Positions 6,760 through 31,416 of a DNA stretch of 41,019 nt are shown in pieces. How positions within the stretch are numbered: the stretch's first letter is position 1; every line of letters starts with the position of its first letter. The DNA is from Actinomycetes bacterium. GTDB lineage: Bacteria > Actinomycetota > Actinomycetes > Jiangellales > Jiangellaceae. The stretch spans positions 1-41,019 of the forward strand of contig JAJYTA010000018.1 of the NCBI GenBank assembly GCA_021793295.1. The letters run 5' to 3'. The notes under the pieces are model-generated. The model had not been told where the DNA came from, searched no databases, and worked only from the letters and a program-made list of their open reading frames with translations. The translations under genes and the position numbers were made by a program.

Positions 6760-7605
6760 GTGCTGGGGACGTCGCCCGCCGTACGGACGCTGGGTCCGCA
6801 AGATCTGGGTGACGTGCTGCGTGTGCTCGACCGTACCCCGTACCTCGACGTCTTCGTGGCCTCGCGCGTGCACGCCTCCGGCCTGGTGCCCTCGCGGCTG
6901 GGCGGTGAGCTCTGGGGCTACTACGAATCCGACCAGTTGCGCTCGCTGTGCTACTCCGGCGCAAACCTGGTGCCCGTGGCCGCCGACGGCCTGGCGACGA
7001 AACTGTTCGCTGACCTCGCCGGCCGACGTGGACGTCGGTGCTCGTCGATCGTCGGGGCCGCCGACGCGGTCCTGGCGATGTGGGACCTGCTGCGTCCCGA
7101 GTGGGGCCCGGCCCGCGAGGTCCGGTCGTGCCAGCCGGTCATGCAACTGACCGGCGGGCCGATCGTCCCGCCGGACCCGAAAGTGCGGCGGGTCCGCCCG
7201 GGCGAGATCGACATCCTCATGCCGGCGGCGGTGGCGATGTTCACCGAAGAGGTCGGTATCGCGCCCACCGGCAACGACGGCGGCGCCTACTACCGGGCGC
7301 GCATGGTCGAGCTCGTCCGGTCGGGACGGGCCTTCGCCCGGTTCGACGACGGCGCCATCGTGTTCAAAGCCGAGGTGGGCGCCGTGACTCCGCGGGCCTG
7401 CCAGGTGCAAGGGGTGTGGGTGCATCCGAACCGCCGCGGCGAGGGCCTGTCGATCGGCGGGATGGCTGCCGTCGCCGCGTTCGCGTTGCGCGACATCGCC
7501 CCGACGGTGTCGTTGTACGTCAACGACTTCAACGTGGTCGCCCGCGAGACCTATCGGCGCGTAGGGTTCACCGAGGTCGGCCGCTTCGCCACCGTCATGT
7601 TCTAA
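6760..7605 (+). CDS. DUF4081 and GNAT-domain acetyltransferase, ispG neighbour
   Basis: A 281-residue protein with an N-terminal DUF4081-like half and a C-terminal GNAT fold. The acetyl-CoA loop region reads GVWVHPNRRGEGLS (near residues 220-235), followed by YVNDFNVVARETYRRVGF, the typical beta6/alpha4 end of GNAT proteins. The GTG at 6760 has AGGGAG 6-7 nt upstream. It is the last gene of the dxr-rip1-ispG run and corresponds by position to Rv2867c of M. tuberculosis. Acceptor substrate unknown. The stop codon is followed after 16 bp by a copy of the 77-bp repeat. Confidence 0.88.
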   Translation: MLGTSPAVRTLGPQDLGDVLRVLDRTPYLDVFVASRVHASGLVPSRLGGELWGYYESDQLRSLCYSGANLVPVAADGLATKLFADLAGRRGRRCSSIVGAADAVLAMWDLLRPEWGPAREVRSCQPVMQLTGGPIVPPDPKVRRVRPGEIDILMPAAVAMFTEEVGIAPTGNDGGAYYRARMVELVRSGRAFARFDDGAIVFKAEVGAVTPRACQVQGVWVHPNRRGEGLSIGGMAAVAAFALRDIAPTVSLYVNDFNVVARETYRRVGFTEVGRFATVMF

Positions 7606-7621: not shown

Positions 7622-7698
7622 AATGATCATGTTCACTTGGCGATTCCCTGCCACACCACCCGTGCACGCCTGTTGGTGCAGCAGAACTCCGCGTGGTG
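7622..7698 (+). repeat. 77-bp dispersed repeat, copy 1
   Basis: Starts with the invariant AATGATCATGTTCACTTGG (containing the palindrome ATGATCAT) and ends in GTGGTG. By eye it matches copy 3 at 64 of 77 positions without gaps. It contains CACCACC, the palindrome CGTGCACG and two GTGGTG-like motifs that could pair with CACCAC. It begins 16 bp after the stop of the GNAT gene, in the same orientation. It is the most diverged of the three copies. Confidence 0.85.
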
Positions 7699-25834: not shown

Positions 25835-25888
25835 ACATACCAGATCACCTTCGTGGCGCCCTCCCGTGATTCATCAGGAGGACGACCC

Positions 25889-28125: not shown

Positions 28126-29442
28126 GTGAGCGCCTTCACGCGCACGCTGCTGGGAGAGGACGATGGCGGCCTGGTTCGCCGCAGCGTCCTTCCCAGCGGT
28201 CTGCGCATCGTGACCGAAGCCGTGCCGACGGTGCGGTCGGTGTCGATCGGTATGTGGGTCGGCGTGGGCTCGGTCGACGAGTCACCGTCGGAGGCCGGCG
28301 CCACCCACTACCTCGAGCATCTGCTGTTCAAGGGCACGGCGAAACGCAGCGTGCTGGACATCTCCTCGGCCATCGAGTCTGTGGGCGGTGAGCTCAACGC
28401 GTTCACCGCGAAAGAGTTCACCTGCTATTACGCCCGGGTGCTCGACACCGACCTGTCGCTGGCTGTCGACGTCGTCGCCGACATGGTGACCTCGTCACTG
28501 ATCCAGCCGGACGACGTCGAGAGCGAGCGCGACGTCGTGCTCGAAGAGATCGCCATGCGCGACGACGACCCGTCCGATGCCGTCCACGACCTGGTTTCCG
28601 GGCAGATGTGGGGCGACAGCCCGCTGGGCCGCTCGATTCTCGGCACGGTCGCCAGCATCACCACGATGACACGAGACACCGTCCACGCCTATTACCGCAA
28701 GCACTACCTGCCGCGGAACATCGTGGTCGCTGCCGCTGGCAACCTCTCGCACGACGAAGTCGTCGCCCTGGTGGAGCGAGCTTTCGCCGACGCGGGCTTC
28801 GGCGTCGAGGACGACGAGCCGGCGCGGCCGAGAATCGGAGGATCAGCGCCGGTCAACGCCAGCGGGGCGACTGTGCTGAACCGGCCGACCGAACAGGCCA
28901 ACGTGGTGCTCGCGGTGCCGGGACTGGCCCGTAACGACGAGCGCCGGTTCGCCCTGGGGGTGCTGAACGCCGCGCTGGGCGGAGGCATGTCGTCGCGGCT
29001 GTTCCAGGAGATCCGCGAACGGCGCGGCTTGGCCTACTCGGTGTATTCCTACGCCGCCCAGCATGCGTCGACCGGCATGTTCGGGGTCTACGTCGGCTGT
29101 CAGCCGAAGAAGATCGACCAGGTGCTCGACCTGTGCCGGTCGATCCTGAACGACGTCGTCACCTCCGGCATCACCAAGGAAGAGCTGGATCGAGGCAAGG
29201 GGCAAGCGCGCGGCGGGCTGGTGCTCGGTTTGGAGGACACCAGCGCCCGGATGAGTCGCCTGGCGAAATCGGAGCTGGTGTACGACGAACTGCCCAGCGT
29301 CGACGAACTGCTCGCCCGCGTCGACGCGGTGACCATGGACCACGTCCGCGAGCTGGCCGAGTCCATCCTGTCGGCTTCGCCGGCCCTGGCCGTCGTCGGG
29401 CCGTTCGACGAGCCCGCGAGGTTCGACACCGTCCTCACCTGA
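28126..29442 (+). CDS. M16-family zinc metallopeptidase (pitrilysin type)
   Basis: A 438-residue inverzincin. HYLEH at residues 61-65 is the HxxEH zinc motif, and the distal glutamate lies in the VVLEEIAMRDDD helix. The C-terminal half carries the R/Y substrate-binding motif region (FQEIRERRGLAYSVYSY). One catalytic and one inactive half per chain is the family layout. GTG at 28126 is 8 nt after pnp, so it is co-transcribed. pnp followed by an M16 gene, often with dapB after it, is common in actinobacteria (recalled, e.g. Streptomyces); here dapB is displaced by a 3-kb island. The 77-bp repeat starts 10 bp after the stop. Confidence 0.93.
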   Translation: MSAFTRTLLGEDDGGLVRRSVLPSGLRIVTEAVPTVRSVSIGMWVGVGSVDESPSEAGATHYLEHLLFKGTAKRSVLDISSAIESVGGELNAFTAKEFTCYYARVLDTDLSLAVDVVADMVTSSLIQPDDVESERDVVLEEIAMRDDDPSDAVHDLVSGQMWGDSPLGRSILGTVASITTMTRDTVHAYYRKHYLPRNIVVAAAGNLSHDEVVALVERAFADAGFGVEDDEPARPRIGGSAPVNASGATVLNRPTEQANVVLAVPGLARNDERRFALGVLNAALGGGMSSRLFQEIRERRGLAYSVYSYAAQHASTGMFGVYVGCQPKKIDQVLDLCRSILNDVVTSGITKEELDRGKGQARGGLVLGLEDTSARMSRLAKSELVYDELPSVDELLARVDAVTMDHVRELAESILSASPALAVVGPFDEPARFDTVLT

Positions 29443-29452
29443 CGCCGGTTCG

Positions 29453-29529
29453 AATGATCATGTTCACTTGGTAATTGCCTGCCCCACCACCCATGCACGC
29501 CTCGTGATGCGACACAAGTCCTCGTGGTG
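29453..29529 (+). repeat. 77-bp dispersed repeat, copy 2
   Basis: Ungapped match to copy 3 at 73 of 77 positions by eye, starting AATGATCATGTTCACTTGG and ending GTGGTG. It begins 10 bp after the M16 stop, in the same orientation. It differs from copies 1 and 3 in the central palindrome (CATGCACG instead of CGTGCACG). The surrounding gap 29443-29798 (356 bp) contains this repeat and the inverted repeat at 29650-29720 and no credible gene. Confidence 0.9.
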
Positions 29530-29649
29530 TGCGGTCTTGCGACAAGGCCCGATCAGCTCATCAGGGGCGTCCGGCTCACTGCGTGCGTTGAGCGTCGGGC
29601 GTCGGGCGGGGTCGTGTCACACGCCGTCCTCGCCAGGAAACGTGAGACG

Positions 29650-29720
29650 TGTCGTGAAGATCGTCGTGCCTGAATGTGCGCCCTATGGCGGCTGTTTCGG
29701 GCACGACGATCTTCACGACA
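29650..29720. repeat. 21-bp perfect inverted repeat (long hairpin)
   Basis: 29650-29670 (TGTCGTGAAGATCGTCGTGC and one more C) is perfectly complementary to 29700-29720. Four more inner pairs (29671-29674 with 29696-29699, one wobble) extend the stem to 25 bp, and CGCC CTAT GGCG (29680-29691) makes an apical stem. No T-tract follows. It lies between the M16 gene and trmL, which converge here, and has the look of a miniature palindromic element. Confidence 0.9.
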
Positions 29721-29798
29721 GCGAAATCAGCCGCGCGCGATCCGGCCGCACCGCCGACACGACGTCCGCCCGGGAGGTCTAGCAGGTCAGCCGGACGT

Positions 29799-30260
29799 TC
29801 ATGCGCCCGGGTAACCGTGCTGGCGCCACGCCTCGTAGGCGGCTACGGCCGCAGAGTTGGACAGGTTCAGCGATCGCCGTCCCGGCCGCATCGGGATGCG
29901 GACGCACTCGGTGACGACCGGATCGGTCAAGACCTCATCGGGCAGCCCGTCCGGTTCTGAACCGAACAGCAGGACGTCGCCGGCCTGGTAGGCGATGTCG
30001 CTGTGTCGCGTGGACGCCGTCGTGGCGAAGGCGAACACGCGCGTGGGCTCGATGGCCTTCCACGTCGAGTCCAGATCAGCGTGGACGGAGACGTCGGCGA
30101 GGTCGTGATAGTCCAACCCCGCTCGGCGGAGTTTGGCGTCGTCGAGATCGAAGCCCAGCGGCTCCACGAGGTGCAGGTGAGCGCCGGTCGCTGCGACGAG
30201 GCGGATCGCATTGCCGGTGTTCGGCGGGATCCGCGGCTCGAAGAAGACGACGTGGAACAC
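29799..30260 (-). CDS. trmL: tRNA (cytidine/uridine-2'-O-)-methyltransferase, TrmL type
   Basis: SPOUT methyltransferase that modifies the wobble position 34 of certain tRNA-Leu species in E. coli. From the GTG at 30260 it has 153 residues, close to the family's usual 157, and begins VFHVVFFEPRIPPNTGN. SPOUT motif 2 is FGSEPDGLP and motif 3 is IPMRPGRRSLNLSNSAAVA; together they form the knot and bind S-adenosylmethionine. The reading frame continues upstream through a tandem repeat giving a Ser/Pro-rich stretch, which is not part of the family; GGAG 6 nt before 30260 supports the shorter start. It faces the M16 gene and lies between two inverted copies of the 77-bp repeat. Confidence 0.9.
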   Translation of the reverse strand: MFHVVFFEPRIPPNTGNAIRLVAATGAHLHLVEPLGFDLDDAKLRRAGLDYHDLADVSVHADLDSTWKAIEPTRVFAFATTASTRHSDIAYQAGDVLLFGSEPDGLPDEVLTDPVVTECVRIPMRPGRRSLNLSNSAAVAAYEAWRQHGYPGA

Positions 30261-30348
30261 CGGCGGCTCCGTTCGCTGCTCGCTGGACACGGGTCGGGAC
30301 ACGCAGCAGCTTATGCCGGTGGCGTCCGTGGCGCGTAGCGGAGGCTTC

Positions 30349-30420
30349 GGTGTCGACGACAGTGACGGGGTCGACGACGGTGACGGGGTCGACGACGGTG
30401 ACGGGGCCGACGACGGCGAC
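30349..30420. repeat. Four tandem 18-bp repeats next to 77-bp copy 3
   Basis: Four units of GGGGTCGACGACGGTGAC type (30349-30366, 30367-30384, 30385-30402, 30403-30420); the middle two are identical and the outer two have a few changes. The array ends 2 bp before copy 3 of the 77-bp element. It lies upstream of trmL; read in the trmL frame it would give a Pro/Ser-rich peptide, probably not translated. Confidence 0.9.
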
Positions 30421-30422
30421 GA

Positions 30423-30499
30423 CACCACGAGGTCTTGTGTCGCACCACGAGGCGTGCACGGGTGGTGGGGGAGGCAATTACCAAGTGAACATGATCATT
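30423..30499 (-). repeat. 77-bp dispersed repeat, copy 3 (overlaps a stop codon)
   Basis: Reverse-strand copy starting AATGATCATG at 30499 and ending GTGGTG at 30423. The TGA stop of the sigma-like gene (30497-30495) is formed by bases 3-5 of the element. It contains two direct copies of CCTCGTGGTG 20 bp apart, either of which could pair with the upstream CACCAC. It has the same gene-relative position and orientation as copies 1 and 2. Confidence 0.9.
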
Positions 30500-31292
30500 C
30501 GACCCGGGTCGGGGGCGGAGAGTCGGCGCGCACAGCGGCGGCGATCTTGCGTACGGCACGGCTGCAGCGCTGCCGCGCGGCCGCCCAACTGAGGCCGTGC
30601 AGCTGAGCTGCGGCGCTGCCGCCGCGGCAGCCCGGACCGGGTGCGTAGACGTCCAGGACCAGCGTCGCGTCTTGAGCAGTGACCGTGCCGGTGTCGACAG
30701 CCCACGCGAGGAGCTCGACGAGCTCGAGGTCCGGCGGCACGTCGCGGTGCGGTGCGTCGACGCGGTGCAGATCGTCCGGCGTGGTGGGGGTCTCATGGCG
30801 CTGGTGGGCATGGTCGGCGACGGTGAGGTGCAGCGTCTCCATGGCGATGTTGGCTGCGACCTTCGATGTGCGCCGATCGACGGGATAGGTGGCGATCACG
30901 GTCCACAGCGCGGTGATCGCGGCCTCTTCCAACGCCGCAGGGACGTCCCGCCCGGCGTGCGAGGACGCGATGCGGATCGCCTTGCCGAGCATGAGCTGAA
31001 GCACCGTCCGGCTCGCGAGCTCGTCGCCGCGGCGGCCGAGACGAAGCAGGGCGAGCAGGATGTCGTCGGCTTGTGCACGGCCCGCTCGAGCGACCCGCCG
31101 CTCCAGCGCCGGTAGGTCCGCGCACCCGGCCAGCGCCGGGTGCGCGCCGGCCCACGCGCGCACAGCCGCACCCGTGGTGGGATCGGCGCACAGGTGGGCC
31201 CACTCGGCGTTGAGGCGCCCGGCGAGCCCGGTCTCACGGCGGCGAGGTGTAGGTGCGGGGGGTGCGGACGGGACGGCGAGGGTGGCGGTCAC
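30495..31292 (-). CDS. Sigma-70-like helix-turn-helix protein of unknown role
   Basis: A 265-residue protein of an uncharacterised actinobacterial family. NAEWAHLCADPTTGAAVRAW and AHPALAGCADLPALERRVAR are near the start; LLALLRLGRRGDELASRTVL and ITALWTVIATYPVDRRTSK resemble sigma region 2-like helices; the C-terminal LSWAAARQRCSRAVRKIAAA resembles a region 4 helix-turn-helix. The GTG at 31292 has a strong AAGGAG 5-6 nt upstream; an upstream in-frame ATG at 31379 lacks such support. Whether it acts as a sigma factor is unknown. It is divergent from the unknown gene at 31506, and two DnaA boxes lie between them. Its stop codon lies inside 77-bp copy 3. Confidence 0.7.
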   Translation of the reverse strand: MTATLAVPSAPPAPTPRRRETGLAGRLNAEWAHLCADPTTGAAVRAWAGAHPALAGCADLPALERRVARAGRAQADDILLALLRLGRRGDELASRTVLQLMLGKAIRIASSHAGRDVPAALEEAAITALWTVIATYPVDRRTSKVAANIAMETLHLTVADHAHQRHETPTTPDDLHRVDAPHRDVPPDLELVELLAWAVDTGTVTAQDATLVLDVYAPGPGCRGGSAAAQLHGLSWAAARQRCSRAVRKIAAAVRADSPPPTRVE

Positions 31293-31416
31293 GGTGGCTC
31301 CTTCCGGATGAACCGATGCCGCCAGGCAACACACCCGCTCTTGCCGAGAGACTTGCCCAGCCGCTGGGCCGGGCGGCAACCGTTCTTGCCCGCCTCAGCC
31401 GCCACCCGGGCAAGGC

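Follow-up and report, generated by a model that had tools for sequence, protein, structure and literature searches.

A REP-like palindromic repeat family behind stop codons in Jiangellaceae

The window analyzed here, a stretch of 41,019 nucleotides from a Jiangellaceae genome (contig JAJYTA010000018.1), raises the question of why the same 77-bp sequence should recur directly behind the stop codons of different genes. The earlier note described three gap-free copies that begin with the same 19 bases, and suspected either a mobile repeat targeted to gene 3' ends or a conserved RNA 3' end. We recovered all three copies at 7622-7698 (+), 29453-29529 (+) and 30423-30499 (-). The exact 19-mer start was common to all of them and had 0 matches in 100 shuffles.

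7622..7698, + strand: first copy of the 77-bp element (copy 1), 16 bp past the stop of a DUF4081/GNAT gene (6760-7605, + strand)
7622..7635, + strand: tag of copy 1, the invariant 14-nt AATGATCATGTTCA, which holds a TGA stop and the ATGATCAT palindrome
29453..29529, + strand: copy 2, 10 bp past the stop codon of a gene for an M16 peptidase (28126-29442, + strand)
29453..29466, + strand: 14-nt tag of copy 2
30423..30499, - strand: copy 3, in which element positions 3-5 (TGA, 30497-30495) serve as stop codon for the upstream - strand gene
30486..30499, - strand: 14-nt tag of copy 3
29453..30499, unstranded: inverted pair of copies 2 and 3, 73/77 identical, flanking a SpoU-methylase gene (29799-30428, - strand)

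The distances of 16 bp and 10 bp first given for copies 1 and 2 agree with stop codons at 7603-7605 (TAA) and 29440-29442. The value of -2 for copy 3 holds if the stop codon is left uncounted: the upstream gene (30495-31379, or a shorter form with its start near 31163) enters the element by 5 nt. On its 3' side copy 3 adjoins an 18-bp tandem repeat (CGGGGTCGACGACGGTGA), present four times at 30348-30421. Elsewhere in the window, an Actino-pnp RNA (RF01688; 25777-25834, + strand) lies immediately 5' of an ORF that begins at 25853, the arrangement expected for pnp.

Copy number and placement in the window genome

The window genome belongs to the genus Haloactinopolyspora of the Jiangellaceae. 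Scanning it with the 19-mer at up to 3 mismatches gave 105 matches, while the reversed control gave none. In the 969 kb around these matches, a selection that under-samples copies without the tag, we read 94 full copies, all of them exactly 77 bp long and without gaps. Element positions 1-14 were identical in 94/94 copies, positions 1-10 having served as the selection. A full-length profile HMM added only one copy, on contig C218, with an altered tag. The base preceding the element was a purine in 93/94 copies and the base after it was usually a pyrimidine. An alignment of 78 copies drawn from Haloactinopolyspora and from several species of Jiangella was gap-free over 77 columns.

All placement figures rest on gene calls from a home-made codon-usage gene finder. 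A same-strand gene precedes 68 of the 91 intergenic copies in the window genome, and in 65 of these 68 the tag falls in the range -18 to +25 nt relative to that gene's stop. Overall, 70% of the copies, compared with 17% of random intergenic positions, fall within 60 nt of such a stop. Thirty copies contribute part or all of the stop codon itself. The commonest offset is -5 (19 copies), at which the element's TGA at positions 3-5 closes the gene; at -18 (6 copies) the element's TAG at positions 16-18 does so, and at -1 (5 copies) the element's first base finishes the stop codon. The same arrangement was found in H. alba, where 26/29 copies lie behind a same-strand gene and none between divergent genes, and in Jiangella, where most copies likewise lie behind a same-strand gene near its stop. 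The excess of same orientation was significant in the window genome (P = 1e-6) and in H. alba (P = 8e-6). A genome-wide search thus returned what the earlier note had anticipated, namely many further copies of equal length just past stops in the gene's orientation, placed far from randomly with respect to genes. Its wording that copies lie always just after a stop codon is too strong, since for 23 of the 91 gene prediction gives no preceding same-strand gene.

In the window genome the element occurs in 27/143 convergent, 49/550 tandem and 6/125 divergent intergenes, and in H. alba in 15/179, 12/611 and 0/175, respectively. For tandem intergenes, the median residual gap was 135 bp with the element and 43 bp without it, and gaps of 20 bp or less made up 4% versus 41%. 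Because the element-bearing tandem intergenes are long, the copies appear to sit where transcription units end, not within operons. They are scarce between divergent genes and within operons.

Palindromic origin and the RNA reading

The two arms of the 77-nt unit pair at register i + j = 87 with 55-60% Watson-Crick matches, compared with 21-45% when slid, and this register is that of an 86-bp palindrome. Such an 86-bp parent form is carried by relatives at loci L327, L330 and L331. L327 (in genome G014) is a perfect palindrome, identical to its reverse complement at 86/86 positions, and L330 and L363 match theirs at 68/86. We therefore read the 77-mer as a version of this palindrome whose 3' arm has decayed over its final 9 nt. 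Variation among the copies of the window genome consists mostly of two-base switches, for example CC to GG at positions 38-39 and 48-49 and GA to AG at 59-60. Template switching between the arms of a hairpin is a documented process in general (PMC8794818) and may account for these switches.

Three stems show covariation between genera and score above 500/500 shuffles in a structure model that we drew by hand on the palindrome register; relatedness alone can inflate a test of this kind. RNAalifold at default settings found no consensus fold. In the window genome the RNA fold is hardly better than that of shuffles (mean z -1.1), and both element strands fold about equally. Neither a U-tract nor a T-run is present at the window copies; with this and the weak fold in the window genome, we rejected an intrinsic terminator. 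Strand-specific RNA selection was rejected as well, since G.T versus A.C mismatches gave no consistent transcript-strand signature and differed between species. Window copies 2 and 3 each have an in-frame TAA, which argues against a coding function, and none of the window copies matched an Rfam model at the gathering score. With a near-shuffle fold, equivalent strands, no U-tract and no strand signature in the mismatches, the initial idea of a conserved RNA 3' end stands only as a possibility.

Distribution and turnover among relatives

Named contigs with the tag belong to Haloactinopolyspora and Jiangella, apart from isolated single matches elsewhere. A covariance model built from the 78 copies gave from a few to at least 150 matches per genome in 18/22 Jiangellaceae; owing to palindromy some loci match on both strands, so that these counts exceed the number of loci. 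None was found among the candidates scored in G017, G018, G021 and G008. Among 148 sampled genomes of the class, 4 genomes from 2 other families had a few weak matches. Genome G007 holds a second class of palindromic repeats of about 80 bp (L167:8757-8856 and roughly 40 more loci), which match the model on both strands; one that we read begins GATGATCATCAAGG. In the window genome, a separate hairpin with TGATCATGTCCGCTGGG arms lies 11 nt past a stop (C254:9434, L115:3435-3490) and may represent a second TGATCA-ended family.

Individual sites turn over. The site of copy 1 is empty in 19/19 other Jiangellaceae genomes read there, and several sites of the window genome are empty in H. alba. About 3/9 comparable sites are common to the two (C5:29548, C296:33493 and C317:9998). 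This is more sharing than free random insertion predicts, and part of the pattern could accordingly reflect a function at fixed sites. At one empty site (C307:39439), H. alba, G020 and G013 have TGATCA, the same as the element's first bases, on or next to their natural stop. About 4-7% of genes, elements included, carry TGATCA at their TGA stop, and only some of the compared sites have it while most compared empty sites do not; we therefore rejected pre-existing TGATCA as a general target. Where the window genome has copy 1, G002 (L289) has a different perfect hairpin with TGATCATGAACACTAG arms, about 20 nt past the stop of the DUF4081 gene. Depletion of other hairpins behind elements was also looked at, with too few cases.

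The 3' end of mshC carries a copy in 9/21 genomes of two genera, -5 to about +8 nt from the stop, with a species-typical sequence in each. The mshC copy of the window genome is 0.83 identical to its own paralogues and 0.77 to its H. alba orthologue, while those of G003 and G007 are 0.88 alike. These identities point to concerted change at this site between genera and to descent within one genus. In 7 of these genomes an inverted pair of elements encloses one gene between mshC and PAC2, an architecture like that of copies 2 and 3 around the SpoU-methylase gene. The enclosed gene is reversed in G007 and G013 (L300, L298) relative to the other seven genomes (L296, L297, L299, L307, L308, L310 and L311), and in G013 only the first copy was seen. 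The gene may have been flipped by an inversion between the two oppositely oriented copies.

Many Jiangella copies form tail-to-tail pairs. The outer spans of the 26 listed pairs were 188-190 bp in 17/26 and 157, 167-168, 196, 200 or 210-211 bp in the rest. These spans lie mostly near multiples of 10.5 bp (P = 0.03, from six span classes and one chosen period), so helical phasing is suggestive only. Most spacers of at least 34 bp contain an inner palindrome like GGNAANCGNTTNCC, which we take to resemble a LacI-type operator.

L318, L335, L345, L350, L359, L361 and L167:15194-15382: Jiangella tail-to-tail pairs, spans near 189 bp, with an inner GGNAANCGNTTNCC-like palindrome

The pairs of the window genome (220-287 bp) showed neither phasing nor a GGNAANCGNTTNCC-like motif. 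Between two convergent copies on C248 (L030), the spacer contains tandem repeats of about 25 bp (CCACCCGGCGATTCGCCTCGTGGCG) that are like the element's 3' end.

Possible explanations and known systems

REPs are explained by RAYT transposases, and the Jiangellaceae hairpins behave in a REP-like way without any Y1 transposase. PF01797 (Y1, TnpA_REP transposase) was found in 0/22 Jiangellaceae genomes, with the control search positive in 5 reference genomes, which led us to reject RAYT mobilization. Something else must therefore spread or homogenize these repeats. Target-site duplications of 3-9 bp were not appreciably above shuffled flanks. Clustering of the genes that flank elements returned what we read, from their sequences, as ABC transporters, dehydrogenases and orthologous sites, with no transposase-like neighbor as a common candidate.

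The explanation that we favor, and consider probable, is a REP-like DNA element of Jiangellaceae that a putative trans-acting factor maintains at the ends of transcription units. The parent form is the 86-bp palindrome with AATGATCA at both ends; Haloactinopolyspora and Jiangella have derived from it a polar 77-nt unit, with 5' tag and arm register intact and the final 9 nt of the 3' arm decayed. A putative protein may recognize tag and hairpin at the DNA level and spread or rewrite copies by transposition or conversion. Copies would be retained where transcription units end, with the tag next to the stop codon, since there the built-in TGA or TAG continues to close the upstream gene and the hairpin stays clear of coding and promoter DNA. 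There the element would form the end of the message, as stop codon plus 3' structure, and might thereby affect the mRNA. The data show the family, its palindromic origin, its placement, its turnover and its concerted change, whereas the DNA-level enzyme and any mRNA effect are inferred. Several points count against this REP-like reading, namely the lack of a mobilizing gene and of a target-site duplication, the weak fold in the window genome, and the 23 of 91 copies there with no preceding same-strand gene. A bolder version, which we put forward tentatively and think rather unlikely, is that a RAYT-independent system copies or converts tagged hairpins onto stop-codon ends, with recognition of the AATGATCA tag and hairpin setting the orientation to the gene and with pairs serving as helically phased protein platforms and inversion substrates.

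Part of the same evidence would suit a non-autonomous transposon (MITE) that is purely selfish, has no host role and is directed to stop codons by a transposase of unfamiliar type. Species-specific subfamilies, empty sites, the tight distance to stops, the invariant tag and the TGATCA at empty site C307:39439 all speak for it. Nevertheless, the target-site duplication is lacking, TGATCA stops are sparse and absent from most compared empty sites, and the mshC copy persists across genera. Terminal inverted repeats are perfect in the 86-bp form, but the 77-bp copies have lost one of them. We consider a MITE unlikely, if with a real chance of being right. An RNA 3'-end function is possible in itself. 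As the full explanation, a functional RNA element would terminate, protect or regulate the upstream mRNA (as terminator, exonuclease barrier or ribosome-stalling hairpin) under site-wise selection with minor mobility. The tag facing the stop codon in gene orientation, the three covarying stems and the mshC site conserved between genera are consistent with it; so are reports that REPs located up to 15 nt from stops stall ribosomes in E. coli (PMC12306157) and the common view that REPs act as RNA (PMC3733652). However, many sites are empty in relatives, and the fold in the window genome stays near shuffle level with no strand preference. The copies also lack the U-tract that, going by the title of one study cited in PMC8355165, mycobacterial RNA polymerase reportedly requires at intrinsic terminators. 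We regard this explanation as distinctly unlikely. A chromosome-organization site of BIME/RIP type, with element pairs bound by a nucleoid or architectural protein, would fit the 26 Jiangella pairs, their spans and the GGNAANCGNTTNCC-like palindrome in their spacers. We think it improbable, given the marginal phase test and the unphased, motif-free pairs of the window genome. The repeat targeted to 3' ends of the earlier note is upheld by orientation and tight stop distance in the window genome, H. alba and Jiangella, and presence and absence among species fit a mobile or turning-over element.

The family offers a clear case of repeats providing stop codons in a fixed orientation. The series from the perfect 86-bp palindrome to the decayed, polar 77-mer, together with genomes with and without the family, makes both mobilizer and host effect directly testable. 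As the earlier note had stated, we found no name for the repeat; its class, however, is recognizable as REP-like. REPs are high-copy palindromic units with a tagged end that lie downstream of genes, between convergent or tandem genes, commonly in oppositely oriented pairs; the termini of GTAG REPs often supply the TAG stop codon of flanking ORFs, and CGTC REPs have also been reported without transposase association (PMC3733652). The Jiangellaceae element is likewise extragenic, high-copy and palindromic with one conserved tagged end, is enriched between convergent and tandem genes and scarce between divergent ones, supplies stop codons and forms inverted pairs. It differs from GTAG and CGTC REPs (BIME, REPIN) in its size of 77 nt (86 in the parent) rather than 20-40, its tag AATGATCAYGTTCA, its fixed length without indels, its strong orientation to the upstream gene and the absence of a Y1/RAYT gene in 22 genomes. 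Length and tag place it outside the GTAG and CGTC superfamilies, and we therefore call it a REP-like family whose sequence, length and polarity are new.

In the E. coli RIP/BIME, two inverted palindromic units surround a short inner IHF site. Jiangella pairs are similarly inverted units around a motif like a protein site, but their GGNAANCGNTTNCC is unlike an IHF site and the window-genome pairs are without it. Mycobacterial MIRUs, which insert at start codons and couple their ORF to the downstream gene at -4 nt (PMC12548453), are also actinobacterial, of similar size, apparently mobile and tied to gene ends. The Jiangellaceae elements instead lie past stops at transcription-unit ends, and the frame from the element's ATG hits the TAA of window copies 2 and 3 at positions 20-22. 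With intrinsic terminators they share a hairpin-forming sequence directly past the stop codon, but in place of a U-tract they have an invariant tag, concerted evolution and an internal stop codon.
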